DNA of 37,284 bases from Gammaproteobacteria bacterium (GTDB lineage Bacteria; Pseudomonadota; Gammaproteobacteria; Steroidobacterales; Steroidobacteraceae). The first letter of the stretch is position 1. Each line of letters starts with the position of its first letter. Positions 18,746-28,806 of this stretch are shown piece after piece. Both the position numbers and the translations under genes were made by a program. The notes under the pieces were generated by a model. That model did not search any database. It saw only the letters and a list, made by a program, of their open reading frames with translations, and was not told where the DNA came from. The stretch is from NCBI GenBank assembly GCA_021773365.1, contig JAJFKF010000107.1, forward strand, positions 1 through 37,284, given 5' to 3'.

Positions 18746-19903
18746 ATGAAGACGACTGGCTTGATGGCAGGCGTGGCGCTGGGTTGTGCGATGGCGGTCA
18801 CCGCGACTGCGGCGCCGGGCACAGCGCCGACGCTGAAGATCGGCGATCCGGCGCCAGCGCTGGAGGTGATGACCTGGATCAAGGGCGAGCCGGTTACCGC
18901 CTTCGAACCTGGAAGGGTCTACGTGGTGGAGTTCTGGGCCACCTGGTGCGGGCCGTGCAATGCGGCCATGCCGCACCTCAGTGAACTGCAGCAGCAGCAC
19001 GCCGATCGCCTGACCGTCATCGGTGTCGATGTGCGCGAGACCATCAAGGGCGAAGCGAGCGTGGAGGCAGTGCGGCGTTTCGTCGAGAAGAAGGGCGCGC
19101 GCATGGCCTATACCGTCGCCATGGATGATCCGGTGACCGAGCCGATGTTCAACAACTGGATGACGGCGGCCGGATCGCATGGCCTGCCGACGTCTTTCGT
19201 GGTCGATGGTCGCGGAATTCTGGTGTGGATGGGCCATCCCATGGGCGAGGGCATTGCCGCCTTCGACCGCGCCGTGGTGGCTGCGGTGGCCGGCAAGACG
19301 GGTGATCTGCAAGCCGCGCGGGAGCGACAGGAACAGATCAGCACGCTGAACGCGCGGCGTCTGCGCGAGCAGGCGTTACTGCAGCCGCTGATCGAGGCGC
19401 AGCAGCGCCAGGATGATGCCGCCGTGGTGGCGCAGGCGGAAAGACTGATGGACACCGAGCCGCGACTGACGGCGCGGCTGTATGTGGCAAAGCTCAGTGC
19501 GCTGCTGCGCATGGATGAAGCCGCGGCGCTGCGGTTCGCCAGTACGCAGGCTGCGGACGACGCCTTTCGCCGTCGCATGGGCGCGACCAACGATGCGCGC
19601 TACTGGAGCAATGTCGGTGCACTGATCGCCCAGCAGCCGGATCTGTCGCGGAGCACTTATCAGCTCGCGCGCGGCTACATTCAGGACGTGGTTTCGGCGG
19701 GTGGCACCGACTTCAACAGCTGGATCTACCTGGCGAAGCTGCATGCCTGGCTGGATGAGCCGGCGCGGGCGCTGGCGGCGCAGGAGAAGGCCATTGCCAT
19801 TACCACCGCCAGCCAGCGCGAGTATCCGCCGGAGTTTCTCTCCGGGCTGGAGCGGGCGCGGGTGGAGTATCAGGGGATGGTGAGTAACGCCGGACGGGAT
19901 TAG
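18746..19903 (+). CDS. Exported thioredoxin-like protein with helical C-terminal extension
   Basis: From the ATG at 18746 (GGAG at 18737-18740 as ribosome binding site) the product is 385 aa with a signal peptide (LMAGVALGCAMAVTATAAPG). A TlpA/ResA-type thioredoxin domain spans about residues 30-190, with the redox pair Cys68-Cys71 in EFWATWCGPCNAAMP and the cis-Pro loop GLPTSFVV. The second half (about 195-385) is helical and TPR-like (SWIYLAKLHAWLDEPARAL), with no close family name that I can give. In the cbb3 context it may reduce apocytochrome or copper-site cysteines, but it is separated from the TauE/SafE gene by 42 bp and could be independent. Its last ~85 bp recur at 22216-22301. It converges with the next gene, overlapping by 4 bp. 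Confidence 0.85.
   Translation: MKTTGLMAGVALGCAMAVTATAAPGTAPTLKIGDPAPALEVMTWIKGEPVTAFEPGRVYVVEFWATWCGPCNAAMPHLSELQQQHADRLTVIGVDVRETIKGEASVEAVRRFVEKKGARMAYTVAMDDPVTEPMFNNWMTAAGSHGLPTSFVVDGRGILVWMGHPMGEGIAAFDRAVVAAVAGKTGDLQAARERQEQISTLNARRLREQALLQPLIEAQQRQDDAAVVAQAERLMDTEPRLTARLYVAKLSALLRMDEAAALRFASTQAADDAFRRRMGATNDARYWSNVGALIAQQPDLSRSTYQLARGYIQDVVSAGGTDFNSWIYLAKLHAWLDEPARALAAQEKAIAITTASQREYPPEFLSGLERARVEYQGMVSNAGRD
19808..19892 (+). repeat. Direct repeat copy A: 3' end of the thioredoxin-like gene
   Basis: This segment is repeated at 22216-22301 in the same orientation, with roughly 90% identity by eye and one 1-bp insertion in the other copy. In this copy it is coding and encodes SQREYPPEFLSGLERARVEY near the protein C-terminus. 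The two copies exactly bracket the FecA-like receptor gene. Confidence 0.9.
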
Positions 19904-22086
19904 AAATCGTACGCGGCGCCGAGGTGGAAGTTGCGCCCCGGTGCGGGTTCGATGCCGCCGTTGACGAAGAATACGCGCGAGTAGTAGTGCTCGTTGGTCA
20001 GATTGGAAACCCCGCCCAGCAGCCTCAGGTGCTGGGCGATCAGGTAGTCCGCCGAGAGGTCGAACACCGTATACGAGGGGATCCTGGCCGGCATCACGAT
20101 CACGTCGCCCGCGATGCGCGGCTGATTGCTGTCTGCCCAGAACTGCGTGCCGATACTCTGGCCGACGAGGCTGGCTTTCCAGTGGTCCTGCTGACGCCAG
20201 GTCAGGCCGGCCTTGATCACGTAGTCCGGAGCGTAGGCCGGCGTATTGCCGGCCAGCGTCGACCCCATCGGGTCGGCGGAGTTCTCCAGCGTGATGCTGT
20301 CGGTGATTTGCGCGTCCAGGAGTGAGGCGTTGACGAAGAAATCCAGGTGTCGGTCCGCTGGGGCATTCGCGGATATCCGCAGCAGATCGTAGTCGAGTTC
20401 CATTTCGACGCCGCGGCTGCGCGCATCGCCGGAATTCACGTTTACCGAGCCGCCGAGGCCGTCGCTCTGGCTTTCGATGCGGTTATTCGTTTGCACGACG
20501 AAGACACTGACGTCGTAAAACAGACCCGCTTGCGGCCAGCCGTGGATGCCCGCCTCGAATGTAAGGTATTCGGTGGTGTCCGGATCATTGCCGGCATTCA
20601 GGCGCGAGCGGTTGCTGGCGACATCACGGTAGCGCACCGGCCGATAGCCCTGCGCGATGTTGAGATACGTCTCGTTGCCGTGGCCGAAGTCATTGCCGAG
20701 TCCCAAGCCGAACAGCGCGACGTCGCGGCTGAGCGTGTCATGTACCAGGGGCCCGGTGTGCGGAGGCGAAGCGGCGATCTTTTCGTTGGTGCCGATTTCC
20801 TCACGCTCCAGGCGCGCTGAAGGCACGATGTGGAACTTGCCGAAACGGAACACGTTCTCGGCGAAGAGCGCTCCATACTTCGTCGTGCTGTGGTTGTCGT
20901 AGCTGATCGTGCCGGATCGGTCGTCCCGACGGGTATACGGCTGGAGGTTGTCCACCACTCCCCAGTCGCTGCTGGACCGGTACAGCGTCGTGCCGACCGT
21001 CAGCGCGTTGCCCCGGCCCCAGCGGTGTGCCAGACGCGCATCGAGGCCACCAAAATGAAACGTCTGCTCGTTGATCGAAGCGGCGGTCGGGGTATCGCCC
21101 GAGTAGGAATCTGAACGATGGGCCACCTCTGTTTTGCCGGCCCACAGCTTGACGGTGAGGAGGTCGTTTCCGCTGAACTGGTTGTCATAGCGCAGCGCGC
21201 CGCTAAAGCGGTCGGTCCACAGGTGGTCCGCTGGGGTGGTGGTCATGTCGGGATCGGCATTGAACTGCCGTACGGTCAGAAAGCCGGGCAGCCCGCTGTC
21301 CAGCGAATAGGCGAGTACGTCGAGGCGCAGACCTTGATGCTCGCCGACGGCGTACTTCAACCGCAGGTCGCCTGAATTGAGCGTGAAATCGCCGTTTTCG
21401 CGCATGCCGTCTGATTGGCGGCGGCTGAAATCGGCGAGATATCCCAGCGCACCGCGGGTCCCGGTAATTTCGTTATAGCTGGAAAACAGACCGTCTGCGC
21501 CCATCACCTGTTCGGTCATGCCGGTCAGCATGTGGCTGGGATCGGGCGCGCGCGAGACGTAGTTGATCACCGGCTGCGGCTCGGGCCCGTAGAGCAGGCC
21601 GGAGCCGCCGCGGATCATCTGGATCGAGTCGATCGTTTGCGGGATCGGCAGATAGTAGTGCGCGGGGTAGCCGAACCAGTCGAGCGCGATCGGCATGCCA
21701 TCCTGCAGCACCAGCACGTATTCGCTTTCCTGCGGATTGCCGATGCCGCGATAGGTGAGATTGAGCTGGGTCGGATCCTGTTGCTCGGCGATGATCACGC
21801 CGGGCAGCCGATTGAACATCTCACGTTGGTTGTTGTTGATCACCGTGGGCTGGTGGTCGAGCTGAACAACGGAGGCTTTCTTCGTCACGGTGATGACCGT
21901 GCCATCCACCTCCGGCAGCGAATGTGCGTACCGGGTTTCGGGATTGATCAGCCACGGCTTGCCTTGGACAATGACGCCCTCGGAATTCACTTTGTTCTGA
22001 TGATCATTCTGGACGGCATCAGCAAGGGCCTCCTTCTGGGCCATCATCGCCAGTAGCATTGCCGTCATCACCAGGATTGCTTTCAT
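19900..22086 (-). CDS. FecA-like TonB-dependent outer membrane receptor without STN domain
   Basis: The 728-aa product (ATG at 22086; a longer frame starts at 22116) has a signal peptide (MKAILVMTAMLLAMMAQKEA). The plug domain spans about residues 60-185, with VVQLDHQPTVINNNQREMF, LPGVIIAEQQ, LVLQDGMPIALDWFGYP and IQMIRGGSGLLYGPEP. A 22-strand barrel follows, ending in LGGVSNLTNEHYYSRVF and the terminal aromatic LGAAYDF. The plug resembles the Fe(III)-citrate/FecA branch, so a ferric chelate is the likely ligand, but this is inference. It lacks the N-terminal STN signalling domain of the other two receptors, so it should not signal to FecR. It is bracketed by a direct repeat, and its 5' region is more A/T-rich than its neighbours, suggesting separate acquisition. 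Confidence 0.9.
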   Translation of the reverse strand: MKAILVMTAMLLAMMAQKEALADAVQNDHQNKVNSEGVIVQGKPWLINPETRYAHSLPEVDGTVITVTKKASVVQLDHQPTVINNNQREMFNRLPGVIIAEQQDPTQLNLTYRGIGNPQESEYVLVLQDGMPIALDWFGYPAHYYLPIPQTIDSIQMIRGGSGLLYGPEPQPVINYVSRAPDPSHMLTGMTEQVMGADGLFSSYNEITGTRGALGYLADFSRRQSDGMRENGDFTLNSGDLRLKYAVGEHQGLRLDVLAYSLDSGLPGFLTVRQFNADPDMTTTPADHLWTDRFSGALRYDNQFSGNDLLTVKLWAGKTEVAHRSDSYSGDTPTAASINEQTFHFGGLDARLAHRWGRGNALTVGTTLYRSSSDWGVVDNLQPYTRRDDRSGTISYDNHSTTKYGALFAENVFRFGKFHIVPSARLEREEIGTNEKIAASPPHTGPLVHDTLSRDVALFGLGLGNDFGHGNETYLNIAQGYRPVRYRDVASNRSRLNAGNDPDTTEYLTFEAGIHGWPQAGLFYDVSVFVVQTNNRIESQSDGLGGSVNVNSGDARSRGVEMELDYDLLRISANAPADRHLDFFVNASLLDAQITDSITLENSADPMGSTLAGNTPAYAPDYVIKAGLTWRQQDHWKASLVGQSIGTQFWADSNQPRIAGDVIVMPARIPSYTVFDLSADYLIAQHLRLLGGVSNLTNEHYYSRVFFVNGGIEPAPGRNFHLGAAYDF

Positions 22087-22215
22087 GTTCTCTGTCGCTC
22101 CATTTCTATACATCATCGGTCACTGTAGCCTCGATCACTTACTTCAGCTGACGCTCACCGGCCAGTGCCGTCCGGGGCGCTCCAGCTGTGGATGGCTGGC
22201 CATCCTCCTTAATAT

Positions 22216-22301
22216 GCCAGCCGCCACGAATTTCCGCCGGAGTTTTTCTCCGGGCTGGAGCGGGCGCGGGCGGAGTATCAGGGGGATGGTGAGGAACGCC
22301 G
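22216..22301 (+). repeat. Direct repeat copy B: diverged thioredoxin-gene 3' fragment
   Basis: This is the second copy of the 19808-19892 segment. In the matching frame it would encode SRHEFPPEFFSGLERARAEY, with conservative changes (Tyr to Phe, Leu to Phe, Val to Ala) relative to copy A; a 1-bp insertion then breaks the frame. The rest of a thioredoxin gene is absent. The stop codon of the minus-strand esterase-like gene (22278-22280) falls inside it. Confidence 0.88.
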
Positions 22302-23630
22302 AACCGGCGTCGCCGGAAGCATTTCGTCAATGAAGATGAAGGCGTCGAACACGGCGGACCAGTCACCGCGCATCGGGCTGTAGCCGAAGGCGCCGGCAAC
22401 GAGCTCCTGGCGCAGCCAGTGATCCTGCGGCGTGTGTTTCAGGTCGATAAACAGATACTTGTGGCCGGTGAGATGAAGCAACTCCTCGAGTGAGCCTGGC
22501 ATTGCCTTTACGGGAATGGCGAAGTCCCTGTTTACCCGGCGACTGCGCCCGCTGTAGGCCAGCACGCCGATGGAGTAGATGTCATCGCCCATCAGCTCAA
22601 GCGCAACCTGGCCCATCGGCCGGTAGGTATCAAACATATCCCTGAAATTTCCGAAGCCTTCCAGGGCGGCGATATCGCGCGCCAGATGCGTATTGGCAGC
22701 CCAGGCAACGATCTTCCGATCCGGGTGGTACTGGTACGCCAGCCAGGCAAGGTTATTACCCATGGAGACGTCGCGCCGGTTGCCGGCTTCGCCGCCGGCG
22801 CGGATGGTTTCCAGGGTGATGGAGTAGGCGTGCTGGAAGTCCCACAGGTTCAGCAGGGTGCGATGCATCAGCATTCTTTCCCGCTGATCGATACGCTCAT
22901 CCGGCCGGCCGACAAGCACGATGAGACGGCTGAGCAGGTCCTGGTACGGTTGCCGCTGCTGATCTGACAGCTTCGCATAGCTGCCTGCGGAAACCATCCG
23001 ATGCAGATCCTGCAACGTGGTCCTGTCCTCGGCAGACAGTGTGTGCGGGTAGGCGCGATCGAGAAAGTCGAACAGCGGAGCGAACATCCCGCCTCTGGAC
23101 TGGCAGTCGAAGCCGCTCATCTCCAGTGGCTTCGCGGTTCCCTGTGTCGCTCTGACATATTCGAGGAGCGGTTGAGTTTCCCGGGCGGCACTCCATACGG
23201 AATAGATGCCGGCGGCAGCGGCGACGTCTACGGGCTTGTCGGTACGCAGTGCGATGTCCGCCATGCGGCATTCGAGAAGATTGGATTCCCAGGCCAGAAC
23301 GCTGAAATCCATGCGCTGATGCAGATACCGGATCAGCCGGGTCTTGGCGCGGAAGGCTTCGCCGTCTCCGTGTGTGGGTTCGCCAAGCGTGACGACGCGG
23401 GCATTGCTAATGCGCCGGCCGATGGGGGTCAGGTCGGAGTAGTCCGTATCGTCGGCGTCAAGCGTGCGGATAGGGATGGCATTTTCCTTCAGCCAGGCGA
23501 TGCGTTCCTGTGTTGTTTCATGTGCCGTCTCCGCCGTGATGTCTTCCGCCCGACACGACAGAGTGAGCACAGCGAGAATAAAAGCGGGGAGCGCCACAGC
23601 GGCGCTCCCCGAAAGATCAAAATACCTCAT
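22278..23630 (-). CDS. Exported erythromycin-esterase-family hydrolase
   Basis: The 450-aa product matches the erythromycin esterase (EreA/EreB) fold. It has VVTLGEPTHGDGEAF (the GExTHG active-site block with the catalytic His), VLAWESNLLE, the arginine/asparagine block VSMGNNLAWLAYQY, and WAANTHLARD. Known members open the macrolactone ring of erythromycin, but many relatives have unknown substrates. A hydrophobic signal (AAVALPAFILAVLTLSC) suggests export or a poorly conserved lipoprotein anchor, unlike cytoplasmic EreA. It starts 17 bp after the upstream TonB receptor on the same strand, with GGAAAG as a weak ribosome binding site. An intrinsic-terminator-like hairpin lies within codons 7-18. 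The last codons run into repeat copy B, so the C-terminus may be altered. Antibiotic resistance should not be assumed. Confidence 0.85.
   Translation of the reverse strand: MRYFDLSGSAAVALPAFILAVLTLSCRAEDITAETAHETTQERIAWLKENAIPIRTLDADDTDYSDLTPIGRRISNARVVTLGEPTHGDGEAFRAKTRLIRYLHQRMDFSVLAWESNLLECRMADIALRTDKPVDVAAAAGIYSVWSAARETQPLLEYVRATQGTAKPLEMSGFDCQSRGGMFAPLFDFLDRAYPHTLSAEDRTTLQDLHRMVSAGSYAKLSDQQRQPYQDLLSRLIVLVGRPDERIDQRERMLMHRTLLNLWDFQHAYSITLETIRAGGEAGNRRDVSMGNNLAWLAYQYHPDRKIVAWAANTHLARDIAALEGFGNFRDMFDTYRPMGQVALELMGDDIYSIGVLAYSGRSRRVNRDFAIPVKAMPGSLEELLHLTGHKYLFIDLKHTPQDHWLRQELVAGAFGYSPMRGDWSAVFDAFIFIDEMLPATPVRRSSPSP
23577..23610 (-). terminator. Intrinsic-terminator-like hairpin inside the 5' end of the esterase gene
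   Basis: On the minus strand, GGGGAGCGCC and GGCGCTCCCC form a perfect 10-bp stem (23610-23601 and 23595-23586) around a 5-nt loop. GC then TTTTATT follows (23583-23577). This is the shape of a Rho-independent terminator for the TonB receptor gene ending at 23648, yet it lies downstream of the esterase ATG at 23630. Confidence 0.6.
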
Positions 23631-23647
23631 TTTTGTTGAAGTCTTTC

Positions 23648-26600
23648 CTAGAGCCCGAACGACTTGCTGATCGTCACCGTGTAACGACGCAGCCTTGGGT
23701 CACCGTAGGGGCTGTAGGCCCTGCCGCTGGGGCTGGTGATGGCCAGGATGGGCGGCGATTCGTTGAACAGGTTCTGCACGCCGACCGACACCTCCACGTC
23801 GGCGAGGAAGCCGCCGGCGAACTGCAGGTCGCTGTCGAAGTGATAGGTGGCATTGAGGTCATGATAGATCTGGTCCGGAATCCATTCCGCGCCCTGGTTG
23901 AGTATGGCCAGGTCAATTGCCGCCGGTTGTGAGGTCGAGCGATAGACGCGATAGGCATTGTAGTACTGCGCATTCCAGGTCATGGACAGCGGACCACGAT
24001 CCCAGGTGACGCCGAGATTGCCACGCCACTCCAGGGGCCCGAAGCTGTAGCCGACATTCTCGACGAATGGTGTGCCGGGCAGCACCTGGCCCCGGTAGTG
24101 CGGTTGCCAGCTGGCCACTGCATACCAGCGGAAGGCGCCCCAGCGGTCGGTGGCCACCGCGTAGTCGGCCTGTATGTCATAGGCTTCCAGCGAGGTGCTG
24201 GAGGCATTGAGGAACGAGGCGTCGAAATGCGTGATCGGGCCCGCCCAGCCGGGCTGATCGGTGGGGAGATTGGGACCGCGTTGAATGCGGCCTTCCGGCA
24301 GATTGTCCTCGTAGTCGAGGAAGAACTGCCACGGCGGGGTGTAGATCTCGTCGGTCTTCTCGATGCGCGTGTAGTCCAGCGACAGCCGCAACGCCGGGGC
24401 GAAGCGCGGCGTCAGGACCATGCCGGCCGACCAGCTCTCCGATTGCTCGGGATTGAGGTTCGGATTACCGCCGGAGATCCAGGTGAAGGGCTGACCGACG
24501 AAGGTGGAGTTGAAGCCGCGCTTCGGATCGCTGCCCAGCGAGAAAAAGGCCTGACGTACGCGCGGCGCGATATGAACGGTGGAGGGCGCGATGAAGCCGG
24601 TGCCGATGCTGGCGCGGAAGGCCACATCCTGCAGCGGCGCGTAGCGAATAGCGAAGGTGTAATCGGTGGACTTGACGTTGTTGACGCTGTAGTCCGGGCC
24701 GGGCAGTTCATCGATCGACAGCAGGTAGTAGCTGTTGGTCAGCGGCGCGCGGGTTTCATACTTGTCGTGGCGCACCGAGGCCTGCAGTTCCAGCGCCCGC
24801 GCCCAGGGCTGCGCGTTCTTCGAGGAGATCAGGGGCGCGCGCGCTTCCAGGTAGTAGGAGTCGGCATCCTGGGAGCGTTGCGGATAGAACAGGTAGTAGA
24901 CGTCACGCGTGGTCTCCATATCCTGGTAGATCGCGTCCTCGAGGGTTTCCTCACGGCGCTCGACCAGGGTGGACAGCGTCAGCGGGCCGCCAGACAGATC
25001 GAACACCGGTCCGGAGAGACGCAGGGTGGCGTCCTTCAGCGTGGTGTCGAATGGGCCGATGAACTGGTTGGGTGAGGGCAACTGATAAGGGCCGAAGTCG
25101 ATCGGGAAGGTGTTGCCCTCCTGCAGGATATTCAATGCCGGACGCGAGTCGCCCGCGGCGCAGGGCAGCAGGGGGCCGGCACCATCGGGATCGACGCCGG
25201 CGCCGACGCCGCGCGCCAGCACGCAGGCGGCCACGGAATCGGCGACAAAGAAGGTGTTGATCTGCTCGAGTCGTGCGCGGCTCCAGTTGTAGTCGATCTC
25301 GCCGGTCCAGTGGCCGGGCAGGCGGAAGATCAGGCCGGCGGTCGCGCGGCGGGTGATCGATTCCGTCCGGGTCCTGAAACTGAGGTTTGGCGTCGGGAAA
25401 CGCACATCGATGGCCTGCTGGAAGGGATTGTTGGGCGCATTCGCCGGCAGGGTGATGGCGCTGGGTACCGCCGCATAGTAGCCGCTGCCGATGTTACCGA
25501 GCTGCGACAGGTCGAGAAACACATCCAGGTAGCTGGTGAACTCGCGGCGCACGTTGATTGAAGCCGATTTCAAGGACGGCCCGGCAAACAGGCCGAGTTG
25601 CCCGCCGGACATGTCCTCGGGTACCGCCAGGTTGTACTGATTGGCGTTGGCAATCAGGGCCGCACCGCCATCGGAATCCGGGCCGGCATAGCCCATCGGC
25701 AGATGCGTGATGGTCGAGCCCAGGGAGGTGCCGCCATATCCGGGATCCAGTGTCAGGTTCAGGCGCTGGTTTGTCATGGGATCGAAATCAGCGCTGCGGA
25801 TATTCACCGTGGCGCCGAGGGGAGCGAAGGATGCGCCCGTTATGGCAGTCGGATTGTTCTGCAGCTGCAGCGCCAGTCCGCGGGAATGAAAATCGCGGTC
25901 CCGGACCATCAGGTCGTTGGCCTGCGCGCGGGTGGCCGCCAGGGTGATCTGGGTGCGGCCGCCTTCCAGACTGAAGCCGGCATTGGCGTCCATGCGGATG
26001 TTTGCCGCGTCGCCGTCGAAGGTGTTGGCATAGGTGATGCGGGTGTCCAGGCCGGTGTACTCGTTGCGCAGAATGACATTGATGACACCGCCGGTGGCGC
26101 TGCCGCCGTAGATGCCGCCGGCCGTGGACGGCAGTACTTCGATGCGCTCCACCGCCGCCATGGGAATGCCGTTGATATCGGCCTGGAAGGAGAAACCCAG
26201 CGTGGAGATGTTCGGCAGACGGCGGCCGTTGACCAGGATGAGCGTCTGGTCGGGACCGAGGCCGCGCAGGTCGATGCTGGAGGACTGGGTGGCCGAGTCG
26301 CCCACGGTCTGGCCATAGGTGGCGCCGGCGGCGTTCATCGGCAGGCGGCTCTTGAGAAATTCCTCCAGGTGCACGGCCTGCGAGCGCTGGATCTCTTCTT
26401 TGTCGAAGACGACATAGGGCTGGGGCGCGTCTTCGGTGCGTTTGATGTCGACGTTGAGATTGCGCTGACCCTTGACCAGGATCTCCGGTGTGCCGGCCTG
26501 TGCTTCGCTGTCCTCGCCGTGTTCCGGATCGGAGCCGGACTTCGCATTGCCGGCTGCTGACGCGCCGGACTGGGGGGGCGCCTCGACCAGGGCAAGGTGC

Positions 26601-27010
26601 ATAGCCTGATGTCCGCCTGCGGGGATCACGGCAGAGGAGATCTCACGTACCTCGGAGCGGATGGCAACAGTTTGTGAATTAATGAAGTGGTAACTCAGAC
26701 CCGACCCCGACAGAAGCTGTGACAGGGCGGCGGCGGCGGTGTACTTGCCCTGGAGTGCAGGTGCGATGAGCTTCGGATTGACCACTTCGGTCGGATAGAC
26801 CACCTGCAGCCCGGCCTGGTCGGCCAGTTGCTTCAGCGCGGTGCCCATGGGCTGCGAGTCGATCCGCAGTGTCAGCTGCGGGGCCGGTTCCGGCTCCGCG
26901 GCCAGGCTGGGCGTCTGGGCGGTGAGCAGGGCCGCCAGCAGGGCCATGCTCAGTGTCGCGCGCAGGGCGGCCAGCGGGCCGGTCCTCGTCGGTTTGAAGT
27001 GTCTGGTCAT
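23648..27010 (-). CDS. STN-containing TonB-dependent receptor/transducer
   Basis: The 1120-aa product starts at the ATG at 27010, with GGGGAG as ribosome binding site 6 bp upstream; a longer frame to 27049 is less likely. A signal peptide (LSMALLAALLTAQTPSLAAE) is followed by an STN domain at about residues 45-125 (LTLRIDSQPMGTALKQLADQ). A Gly/Ser/Glu-rich linker comes next, then the plug (AVHLEEFLKSRLPMNA, SSIDLRGLGPDQTLILVNGR, VERIEVLPSTAGGIYGGSAT). The large barrel ends in RRYTVTISKSFGL. STN domains contact FecR-type anti-sigma factors, so this receptor should both import a ligand and signal. The divergent fecI/fecR pair at 27182 is the obvious partner. It is followed on the same strand by the esterase-like gene. 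Confidence 0.92.
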   Translation of the reverse strand: MTRHFKPTRTGPLAALRATLSMALLAALLTAQTPSLAAEPEPAPQLTLRIDSQPMGTALKQLADQAGLQVVYPTEVVNPKLIAPALQGKYTAAAALSQLLSGSGLSYHFINSQTVAIRSEVREISSAVIPAGGHQAMHLALVEAPPQSGASAAGNAKSGSDPEHGEDSEAQAGTPEILVKGQRNLNVDIKRTEDAPQPYVVFDKEEIQRSQAVHLEEFLKSRLPMNAAGATYGQTVGDSATQSSSIDLRGLGPDQTLILVNGRRLPNISTLGFSFQADINGIPMAAVERIEVLPSTAGGIYGGSATGGVINVILRNEYTGLDTRITYANTFDGDAANIRMDANAGFSLEGGRTQITLAATRAQANDLMVRDRDFHSRGLALQLQNNPTAITGASFAPLGATVNIRSADFDPMTNQRLNLTLDPGYGGTSLGSTITHLPMGYAGPDSDGGAALIANANQYNLAVPEDMSGGQLGLFAGPSLKSASINVRREFTSYLDVFLDLSQLGNIGSGYYAAVPSAITLPANAPNNPFQQAIDVRFPTPNLSFRTRTESITRRATAGLIFRLPGHWTGEIDYNWSRARLEQINTFFVADSVAACVLARGVGAGVDPDGAGPLLPCAAGDSRPALNILQEGNTFPIDFGPYQLPSPNQFIGPFDTTLKDATLRLSGPVFDLSGGPLTLSTLVERREETLEDAIYQDMETTRDVYYLFYPQRSQDADSYYLEARAPLISSKNAQPWARALELQASVRHDKYETRAPLTNSYYLLSIDELPGPDYSVNNVKSTDYTFAIRYAPLQDVAFRASIGTGFIAPSTVHIAPRVRQAFFSLGSDPKRGFNSTFVGQPFTWISGGNPNLNPEQSESWSAGMVLTPRFAPALRLSLDYTRIEKTDEIYTPPWQFFLDYEDNLPEGRIQRGPNLPTDQPGWAGPITHFDASFLNASSTSLEAYDIQADYAVATDRWGAFRWYAVASWQPHYRGQVLPGTPFVENVGYSFGPLEWRGNLGVTWDRGPLSMTWNAQYYNAYRVYRSTSQPAAIDLAILNQGAEWIPDQIYHDLNATYHFDSDLQFAGGFLADVEVSVGVQNLFNESPPILAITSPSGRAYSPYGDPRLRRYTVTISKSFGL

Positions 27011-27042
27011 TTCACGCTCCCCGGTATTGTGTACTACTGCGG

Positions 27043-27058
27043 CCGGCATTCGTGCCGG
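27043..27058. promoter_or_regulatory. Perfect hairpin in the divergent receptor/fecI intergenic region
   Basis: CCGGCA-TTCG-TGCCGG is a perfect 6-bp stem with a 4-nt loop, 33 bp upstream of the receptor start and 124 bp upstream of fecI. It could be an operator palindrome or an RNA hairpin in the receptor leader. A possible -10 sequence TATATT for fecI lies at 27130-27135, without a convincing -35. Confidence 0.35.
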
Positions 27059-27181
27059 TATCGCCCTTACAGTCCGGCCTGGAGCGCGGAATTCCCCCCG
27101 GGTGGGGAAAAATTTTCTCTGGAGGGGACTATATTACTGATGTGAAACCGTACGGAGCGAGCAGAGGGCTGATCGGGCGAA

Positions 27182-27754
27182 ATGAAGGCCAGAAGTTCAT
27201 CCGCAGGGGCGAAATTTGCCGAGTCGATGTTTCGACACTACGGCTCGGAGCTGCATCGCTACCTGCTGCGGCGCCTGCAGCATATGCAGGATGCCGAGGA
27301 TCTCGCCCAGGAAGTGTATGTGGAGCTTATCCGCGTCGACAAAGCGCGATTCATTCGCAGCCCTCGAGCCTACGTGCTCAGAATCGCAGCCAATGTGGCC
27401 AGCGATTTCCAGCGCGGCGCCGATGTCCTGCGCCAGAGAATCAGCTTTGATTCAAGGACCGTGGACCATCTCACCGAGTATCCGGCACAGATCGACACTG
27501 AAGATATGGCCGCGCGACTGCTCACCCAGCGGCAGCTCGGTGATGCACTCGGTAATTTGCCACCGGCCCACCAGGCGGCGTTTGTACTGCAAAGCCGCGA
27601 CGGGTACTCCTACGAGGAAATTGCCCGGCGCATGCAGTTCTCCGTGCGCAAGGTGGAGCGGCTGCTGGCGGAGGCCCGGGAGCAGCTGCAAGCCTCCCTG
27701 GGCGCGATCGCGCCCGAGCAGCGAGAAAAAGCCGGGGATCGGGAAACACCATGA
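27182..27754 (+). CDS. FecI-type ECF sigma factor, first pair
   Basis: The 190-aa product is an extracytoplasmic-function sigma factor of the iron/TonB (FecI) group. Region 2 contains FRHYGSELHRYLLRRLQHMQ and DAEDLAQEVYVELIRV, and SPRAYVLRIAANVASD follows. Region 4 contains LGNLPPAHQAAFVLQSRDG, YSYEEIARRMQFSVRKVERL and LLAEAREQL. An internal ATG (27227) would remove 15 residues and also fits the family start. It overlaps fecR by ATGA. It is divergent from the STN receptor at 23648-27010, its likely sensor. Confidence 0.92.
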   Translation: MKARSSSAGAKFAESMFRHYGSELHRYLLRRLQHMQDAEDLAQEVYVELIRVDKARFIRSPRAYVLRIAANVASDFQRGADVLRQRISFDSRTVDHLTEYPAQIDTEDMAARLLTQRQLGDALGNLPPAHQAAFVLQSRDGYSYEEIARRMQFSVRKVERLLAEAREQLQASLGAIAPEQREKAGDRETP

Positions 27755-28806
27755 AACAGCAACTCTCGGATGATCGCACTCTGGCTGAACAGGCCCAGGC
27801 ATGGATTTGCCGTCCACCCGCGCCGGACAGCGCGGAGAGCGAGGCCTTCGCCCTCTGGCTGAAACGTTCGCCGCAGCATGTGCAGTGCTACCTGCAGATG
27901 CTGGCGGTTGAGCGTGAGTTTCACGATATCGATCCGGCACGCAGGATTGACGTCGATGCATTGATTGCCCGCACGCGTGACAATGTCGTGCAACTGAACC
28001 CCGGAGTGGAAACGCATCCGGTTGCGCTGGTCCGCCGCCGGGCCCGGCGCCGCTCTGCACGCCGCTGGCAGGCGATCCCGGCCGCGGCGGCGGTACTGTT
28101 CGTGGCGGCCGGTCTGTTTGGCTGGATGTGGTGGAGCGCGCATGGGGCGCATGTCTACCGCACGGCTACCGGTCAGCAGCAGAAGCTCAAGCTGGCTGAC
28201 GGCACCATCATCGATCTGAACACCGAGTCGCGCCTGCGGGTGGATTTCTCCAGGACCCGCCGTGATGTTTATCTGCTCGCGGGTGAGGCTTTGTTCGATA
28301 TTCATCATGACGCCCACCGCCCGTTCCGGGTGCATGTGGACGGCGCGGTCATCACCGATATTGGCACGCGATTCAACGTCTATCGCCGTGCGCAGGCCAC
28401 TACGGTGGCGGTGCTCGACGGGGCGGTGGAGATTTCCAGCGAGGCGAGCGAGCGCACCGCTGCGGGAGTCACTGCCGCTCCGCTGCGAATCGATGCCGGC
28501 GAGATGGCGGCCATCGACGCGCGCGCGCAGCCCCTGGAGCTGGGCCGGGCCGATGTGGCGCAGGTGACGGCCTGGCGCCAGCGACGCCTGTGGTTCCAGG
28601 GGACCGAACTGGGGGAAATAGCCGCGCAGTTCAATCGTTACAACGCGGCGCCGAAGATCCTGGTGGAGGACGAGGCGCTGCGTTCCCGACGCTTCTCCGG
28701 CGTGTTCAACGCCGACGATCCGAAGACTTTCGTGCAGTTCCTGTACCAGGACGCTGACATTGATTTCGACCACGACGTGCGCGGGTTTGTGATTCGCGCG
28801 CGATAG
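27751..28806 (+). CDS. FecR-type anti-sigma/sigma regulator, first pair
   Basis: The 351-aa inner-membrane regulator is expected to hold the partner FecI until the STN domain of a loaded receptor signals. The N-terminal cytoplasmic domain has SEAFALWLKRSPQHVQCYL, the FecR N-terminal Trp-containing motif. One membrane helix follows (AIPAAAAVLFVAAGLFGW, about residues 108-128). The periplasmic FecR domain has KLADGTIIDLNTESRLRV, LLAGEALFDIHHD and ITDIGTRFNVY. The C-terminal STN-like segment has LGEIAAQFNRYN and RRFSGVFNADDPKTF. Complete by these marks. Confidence 0.92.
   Translation: MKQQLSDDRTLAEQAQAWICRPPAPDSAESEAFALWLKRSPQHVQCYLQMLAVEREFHDIDPARRIDVDALIARTRDNVVQLNPGVETHPVALVRRRARRRSARRWQAIPAAAAVLFVAAGLFGWMWWSAHGAHVYRTATGQQQKLKLADGTIIDLNTESRLRVDFSRTRRDVYLLAGEALFDIHHDAHRPFRVHVDGAVITDIGTRFNVYRRAQATTVAVLDGAVEISSEASERTAAGVTAAPLRIDAGEMAAIDARAQPLELGRADVAQVTAWRQRRLWFQGTELGEIAAQFNRYNAAPKILVEDEALRSRRFSGVFNADDPKTFVQFLYQDADIDFDHDVRGFVIRAR

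Follow-up and report, generated by a model that had tools for sequence, protein, structure and literature searches.

We analysed a 37,284-nt contig (JAJFKF010000107.1, assembly GCA_021773365.1) of a gammaproteobacterium of the family Steroidobacteraceae; this whole stretch is called the window, and positions refer to it. On its minus strand, a gene for a TonB-dependent receptor is closely followed by a gene for an erythromycin-esterase-like protein, and a GC-rich hairpin with a U-rich tract occupies the first codons of the latter. We find it somewhat probable, judging from the sequence, that this element acts as the intrinsic terminator of the receptor transcript, forming its 3' end, and that the esterase is made by read-through. 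The features concerned are as follows.

23648..27049, minus strand: TonB-dependent receptor of 1133 aa, with STN, Plug and beta-barrel domains; the gene upstream of the esterase gene
22278..23630, minus strand: open reading frame (ORF) of an erythromycin-esterase-like protein of 450 aa (PF05139, E 1.8e-35)
23585..23611, minus strand: perfect 11-bp stem with a 5-nt loop, encoding SGSAAVALP of the predicted signal peptide
23577..23583, minus strand: U-tract UUUUAUU, separated from the stem by one C; with its neighbours it encodes AFI, in the hydrophobic core
23553..23630, minus strand: predicted signal-peptide codons 1-26, MRYFDLSGSAAVALPAFILAVLTLSC, with a lipobox-like Cys26, from hydropathy and a lipobox pattern

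The receptor, which matches PF07660, PF07715 and PF00593 above cut-off, ends with a TAG stop codon at 23650-23648, and the esterase ATG at 23630 follows 17 nt past this stop. The hairpin (minus strand, 23611-23585) consists of the left arm CGGGGAGCGCC, the loop GCTGT (GCUGU in RNA) and the right arm GGCGCTCCCCG, and is followed by CTTTTATTCTCG. Its stem starts 36 nt past the receptor TAG; counted from the esterase ATG, its first base is nt 20 of the ORF, 19 nt past the A. The initial annotation had placed a terminator-like hairpin after both the receptor stop and the esterase ATG, which is borne out; it had also described a 10-bp stem followed by TTTTATT, where the hairpin stands but the stem is 11 bp long and one C precedes the T-run.

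The sequence after the stem is CUUUUAUU (C-UUUU-A-UU-C-U in RNA), with a tail score of 4.8. The hairpin alone folds at -25.1 kcal/mol, and both the minimum free energy and the centroid fold of one 101-nt stretch retain the stem. Two features of an intrinsic terminator, a stable GC-rich stem-loop and a U-rich tract after the stem, are present. No Rfam match to a known RNA family was found across 22000-28000. A repetitive extragenic palindromic (REP)-like or other mobile repeat was rejected, since the stem sequence is single-copy in the 3.97-Mb genome at 0 mismatches.

The hairpin is distinguished by its stem

Forty first-order Markov resamplings of the window gave a mean of 0.1 perfect stems of at least 11 bp per window, and no stem of this length with a T-rich tail. 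When the first 20 codons were recoded synonymously with the codon usage of the genome, 58 of 20000 versions (0.29%) attained an 11-bp stem, and 1.4% of 3000 synonymous recodings folded equally well; shuffling the codon order gave a stem of more than 10 bp in 0 of 20000 cases.

We also computed a terminator score, which combines stem and tail with coefficients after published terminator scores. The hairpin ranks second among 683 T-tailed hairpins in 437 kb of the genome and second among 1346 in 837 kb. The claim of a terminator at the receptor end is upheld in that the form is that of a strong intrinsic terminator. The other three entries of the 437-kb top four (two palindromes, one of them scored on both strands) are intergenic and lie 20-58 nt past stop codons. 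The top-scoring terminator of the sample, G000:C52:4872-4893, is T-tailed on both strands and lies between convergent genes. A simple scan for terminator-like sites found no overall excess in 10 kb (6 seen, 5.7 expected); in 1.1 kb, its sole site was the receptor-esterase hairpin (0.7 expected). What distinguishes this hairpin is the quality of its stem.

Stems recur at the 3' ends of receptor genes

The genome carries a very large expansion of TonB receptors: 182 pieces matching one receptor query, often several per receptor, were among the matches listed, with at least 103 C-terminal ends, and receptors make up 57 of the 503 genes called in the 837-kb sample. As receptor ends we took the 103 listed matches that reach query residue 1126 or beyond; 150 of 243 candidates were scored and one stretch (L139) was left out. 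Perfect stems of at least 9 bp occur within the first 100 nt past the stop at 23 of these 103 ends (21 when the interval is shifted 3 nt back). Of the control stretches, the final 100 nt of coding sequence gave 2 of 103, the stretch at 100-200 nt gave 1 of 103 and that at 300-400 nt, where one end has less than 400 nt, gave none. A T-rich tail (at least four T among the 8 nt that follow the stem) accompanies 7 of the 23.

The same tendency appears at close same-strand junctions, those whose downstream start falls between -10 and +30; receptors were identified here by profile search. In 837 kb, 5 of 19 junctions after receptors carry a stem vs 0 of 92 after other genes (Fisher p 9e-5). At unlinked ends the counts are 10 of 37 for receptors and 14 of 349 for other genes, and stretches inside genes gave 12 of 1920. 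Dropping one doubtful ORF (C66:1542, TTG start only) leaves 4 of 18 receptor junctions with a stem (p 5e-4), and dropping the present locus as well leaves 3 of 17 (p 0.003). An earlier count with a different rule, over 437 kb, gave 5 of 12 after receptors vs 0 of 55; it alone included C94:74511, whose gene probably starts 3' of its hairpin. With a regular-expression receptor classifier the difference was not significant (2 of 12 vs 3 of 99, p 0.09); this classifier was dropped for the profile search because it mislabelled several receptors as 'other'. Genes were called as the longest ORFs with high G+C at third codon positions, which makes starts approximate, and the sampled contigs were partly chosen for holding esterases or receptors. 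A thioredoxin-like or esterase partner comes soon after several of the receptors, and several of the esterase-family matches stand immediately after a receptor.

Most examined esterase relatives lack the stem

The genome holds 15 matches to the esterase family (PF05139); within the same taxonomic family, 25 of 217 genomes have members of this protein family (E<=1e-15). The nearest paralog, 63% identical, starts at residue 94 at the end of contig C27. Its probable N-terminus lies at C67:1-231, directly after a receptor 55% identical to that of the locus; G000:C67:1-231 and C27:22993-24051 are apparently two parts of one esterase gene, separated by a gap of a few codons.

No stem is present in three more receptor-esterase pairs (L008, L013, L015). 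In a further pair, L007, a 14-bp stem lacking a T-run lies within the esterase frame, 17 nt past the receptor stop; its sequence is likewise single-copy in the genome. L007 is the only one of 10 own-genome paralogs with upstream sequence to have a stem of at least 8 bp ahead of the signal core. Among three further own-genome paralogs, one (L051) has a stem before its start: untailed and 12 bp long, it follows a receptor-like stop by 16 nt and precedes the esterase ATG, which is the ordinary arrangement. Outside the genome, we scanned same-family loci from 60 nt upstream of the frame through to the domain for stems of at least 9 bp: none of the 15 with a frame opening close to the domain has one, and of the 14 with a long N-terminal part one does, its stem being untailed. 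Distant loci gave 2 of 80, neither T-tailed.

Searches with the esterase itself (P0001; the genome counts include the source genome) matched two other genomes among 59 relatives (E about 1e-23), one other, G244, among 296 genomes of the order (E<=1e-30; 40% over part) and no other among 369 genomes of the class at E<=1e-40. A contig search with P0001 alone found no relatives, and one with alignment A1 found 196, of which the best 80 were kept; at 24-39% identity these are too distant for an RNA comparison. At one own-genome locus, L012 (G000:C69:24344-25567), the esterase domain lies in one 1400-codon open frame, a possible fusion, and the region upstream of the domain resembles a peptidase by eye.

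Since most of the esterase relatives examined, the nearest paralog included, lack the stem, it is not a feature of the esterase gene and is not conserved with it. This comes close to the outcome that the initial annotation had named as refuting, namely relatives that encode the same signal peptide without a conserved stem; the recurrence at receptor 3' ends lay outside what that annotation could see. Because stems recur there and not among esterase relatives, the best reading is that the stem would be the 3' element of the receptor gene, retained despite overlapping codons of the next gene.

The esterase probably starts ahead of the hairpin

Two further features bear on the choice of start codon.

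23646..23649, minus strand: AGGA, a weak Shine-Dalgarno-like motif overlapping the receptor stop, 15 nt ahead of the ATG
23595..23597, minus strand: in-frame GTG (Val12), a rival start, with GGAG 7 nt upstream in the left arm of the stem

The context of the ATG at 23630 is AT-rich, in the lowest 1% for G+C among 220 gene starts. Of the three starts compared, only this one places an Arg (Arg2) ahead of the hydrophobic core, with an n-region net charge of 0 owing to Asp5, and a start at GTG Val21 would leave no hydrophobic core. All 6 esterase paralogs scored have a hydrophobic N-terminal stretch, and a start adjoining the receptor stop is also seen in other receptor-linked esterases. Export is predicted from hydropathy and a lipobox rule. 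Given the AT-rich context, the Arg before the core and the hydrophobic N-termini of the paralogs, ATG 23630 is probably the true start, and the suggestion that this ATG is wrong is unlikely to hold.

Termination with read-through and its alternatives

We infer the following course of events. The esterase start codon would sit between the receptor stop and the terminator, whose DNA would double as signal-peptide code. RNA polymerase leaving the receptor gene would reach a strong terminator before an esterase ribosome could follow and would mostly halt near 23577, so that the receptor mRNA would end in a stable hairpin. The fraction passing the leaky, interrupted U-tract would supply the esterase, and perhaps also a second receptor encoded further 3'. 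Since the terminator comes after the ATG, a transcript for full-length esterase would have to cross it wherever its promoter lay; a scan near the receptor-esterase junction found no sigma-70-like promoter, a weak test with promoters of the extracytoplasmic function (ECF) type outside its reach. The excerpt of the review PMC7858274 gives close to 100% termination where an intrinsic terminator falls within the first 100 nt of an ORF, since the ribosome has not yet caught up, and on this basis mostly receptor-only mRNA would be expected.

Several findings weigh against termination with read-through. The U-tract is broken by one A and preceded by one C (C-UUUU-A-UU), and a T-rich tail is missing at 16 of the 23 receptor ends with a stem. 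Across the 103 receptor ends, stems are about equally common with a close partner (6 of 28) and without one (17 of 75), which argues that they are general to receptor ends and not special to junctions. The hairpins ranked 5 and 6 by score in 837 kb sit within called genes, so that a high score alone is not proof of a terminator. In the nearest paralog, the ATG probably lies 3 nt past the receptor stop, the signal peptide differs and there is no stem; our searches for esterase orthologs in the order, in the class and among 59 relatives yielded none.

The main rival, which we judge rather unlikely, is that the hairpin stabilises the receptor segment without terminating, by blocking 3'-5' exonucleases after the receptor-esterase mRNA is processed. 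Since a T-rich tail is present in only 7 of 23 cases, the stems at receptor ends may indeed protect 3' ends instead of ending transcripts, and the excerpt of PMC7509114 describes 3' stem-loops that block 3'-5' RNases and puf hairpins that prevent cleavage; however, a U-tailed score among the two best in 837 kb would be unneeded for protection alone. The initial annotation had favoured a translation-dependent attenuator, in which ribosomes reaching or restarting at the esterase ATG melt the stem, so that translation sets the receptor:esterase ratio. The spacing from receptor stop to ATG to stem permits this, the ORF from ATG 23630 would span the terminator and thus give the overlap with translated codons that marks such attenuators, and intrinsic terminators can be antiterminated by coupled ribosomes (PMC7858274, in excerpt). 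Nevertheless, the near-complete termination early in ORFs given in the same excerpt leaves melting by esterase ribosomes not well supported, and a ribosome at the receptor stop would fall about 20 nt short of the stem, going by the ribosome footprint. Folding of the one 101-nt stretch showed no alternative (antiterminator) structure in place of the stem, with no search aimed at such folds or at regulatory codons. Altogether we regard an attenuator as improbable.

Even less probable is that the ATG is misannotated and translation starts at GTG Val12, the hairpin then being either an ordinary terminator or a 5' element masking the ribosome site. The GGAG at 7-nt spacing would suit such a start, and the remaining peptide would still be hydrophobic; on the other hand, the start would lie inside the stem, its n-region would have no Arg or Lys, the very AT-rich context belongs to ATG 23630, and a parallel hairpin (C152:57948, below) would be translated unless a rarer start is used. 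We give almost no credence to the idea that the hairpin has no role in the RNA and merely arises from GC-rich codons of the signal peptide. Chance pairing can occur in such codons, as the 0.29% of synonymous versions shows, but that so few versions do so speaks against it, as do the U-tract, the placement of the hairpin and the enrichment of stems at junctions after receptors.

Similar arrangements elsewhere in the genome

An independent case lies at C4:5467, where a 12-bp stem followed by TTTCTTTTT (score 47) begins 32 nt after a receptor stop, in the N-terminal codons of a 714-aa thioredoxin-like protein. The partner frame opens with GTG directly past the receptor stop, and stem and tail encode TAIAAAMAVFLF; an ATG within the right arm of the stem is an alternative start. 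C152:97161 is similar, with a thioredoxin-like partner whose N-terminal codons hold a strong 13-bp stem without a T-run. At C152:57948 a strong stem without a U-tract lies in N-terminal codons, and because no in-frame ATG, GTG or TTG occurs between hairpin and signal core, the hairpin should be translated unless a rarer start is used.

We tentatively raise, as a doubtful but possible extension, that terminators of this genome double as signal-peptide code, the receptor terminator supplying, when translated in frame, the hydrophobic core of the export signal of the partner, whose synthesis would need leakage. A terminator would be readable in this way because GC palindromes give Ala, Val, Pro and Gly and a U-tract gives Phe, Leu and Ile. 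The arrangement would have arisen at least twice (esterase on C10, thioredoxin-like protein on C4), and receptor mRNA ends would stay intact while the partner relies on leakage.

Relation to known elements

The hairpin resembles a canonical Rho-independent terminator in its GC-rich stem, short loop, U-tract and position some tens of nt past a stop codon; it differs in lying inside the first codons of a downstream same-strand gene, in coding for a signal peptide and in its interrupted U-tract. In the attenuators of pyrBI/pyrL and rph-pyrE, a ribosome on or near the terminator prevents termination. These share with our locus a terminator that overlaps or abuts translated codons, but their upstream leader or gene is translated up to or into the stem, whereas here the 1133-aa receptor ends 36 nt ahead of the stem and it is the regulated enzyme whose ORF overlaps. 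For 5'-proximal terminators, the review discussed above cites Li et al. 2015, reportedly a study of E. coli.

The puf intercistronic stabilising hairpins, as described in the excerpt of PMC7509114, are likewise strong stems between cistrons of a likely operon with possibly unequal output; our hairpin, unlike them, carries a U-tract and sits within the second cistron. E. coli also has transcript 3' ends within ORFs, at least one of which, aceK int, is attributed to intrinsic termination, and the excerpt of PMC7815308 makes no visible tie between such ends and the 3' end of a preceding gene or signal-peptide codons. In the titles and abstract openings covered, we found no account of a terminator overlapping the signal-peptide codons of the next gene. 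From its sequence, the hairpin is an element of a familiar type, unusually placed, in a pattern repeated within one genome; our searches found nothing outside this genome in which it is conserved.

If termination with read-through is correct, a single DNA stretch would encode both a stop signal for RNA synthesis and a signal for protein export, and it would show how an outer-membrane receptor and an exported partner can come from one transcript in unequal amounts without separate promoters. The locus would then provide a natural case for asking whether a terminator placed right at the beginning of an ORF escapes the ribosome. For annotation, it would caution against discarding start codons that lie ahead of a terminator.

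Neighbouring genes and minor observations

The following genes flank the receptor-esterase pair.

19900..22116, minus strand: second TonB receptor of 738 aa, on the same strand and 3' of the esterase gene
27182-27754, plus strand: ECF sigma factor, divergent from the receptor gene, in a block spanning 27182..28806
27751-28806, plus strand: FecR-like anti-sigma factor, divergent from the receptor gene

Directly 3' of the esterase stop, on the minus strand at 22237-22253, lies a short hairpin without a T-run, CCGGAGAAAAACTCCGG. Elsewhere in the genome, G000:C69:69686-69735 holds a perfect 21-bp stem within a called 337-aa gene.

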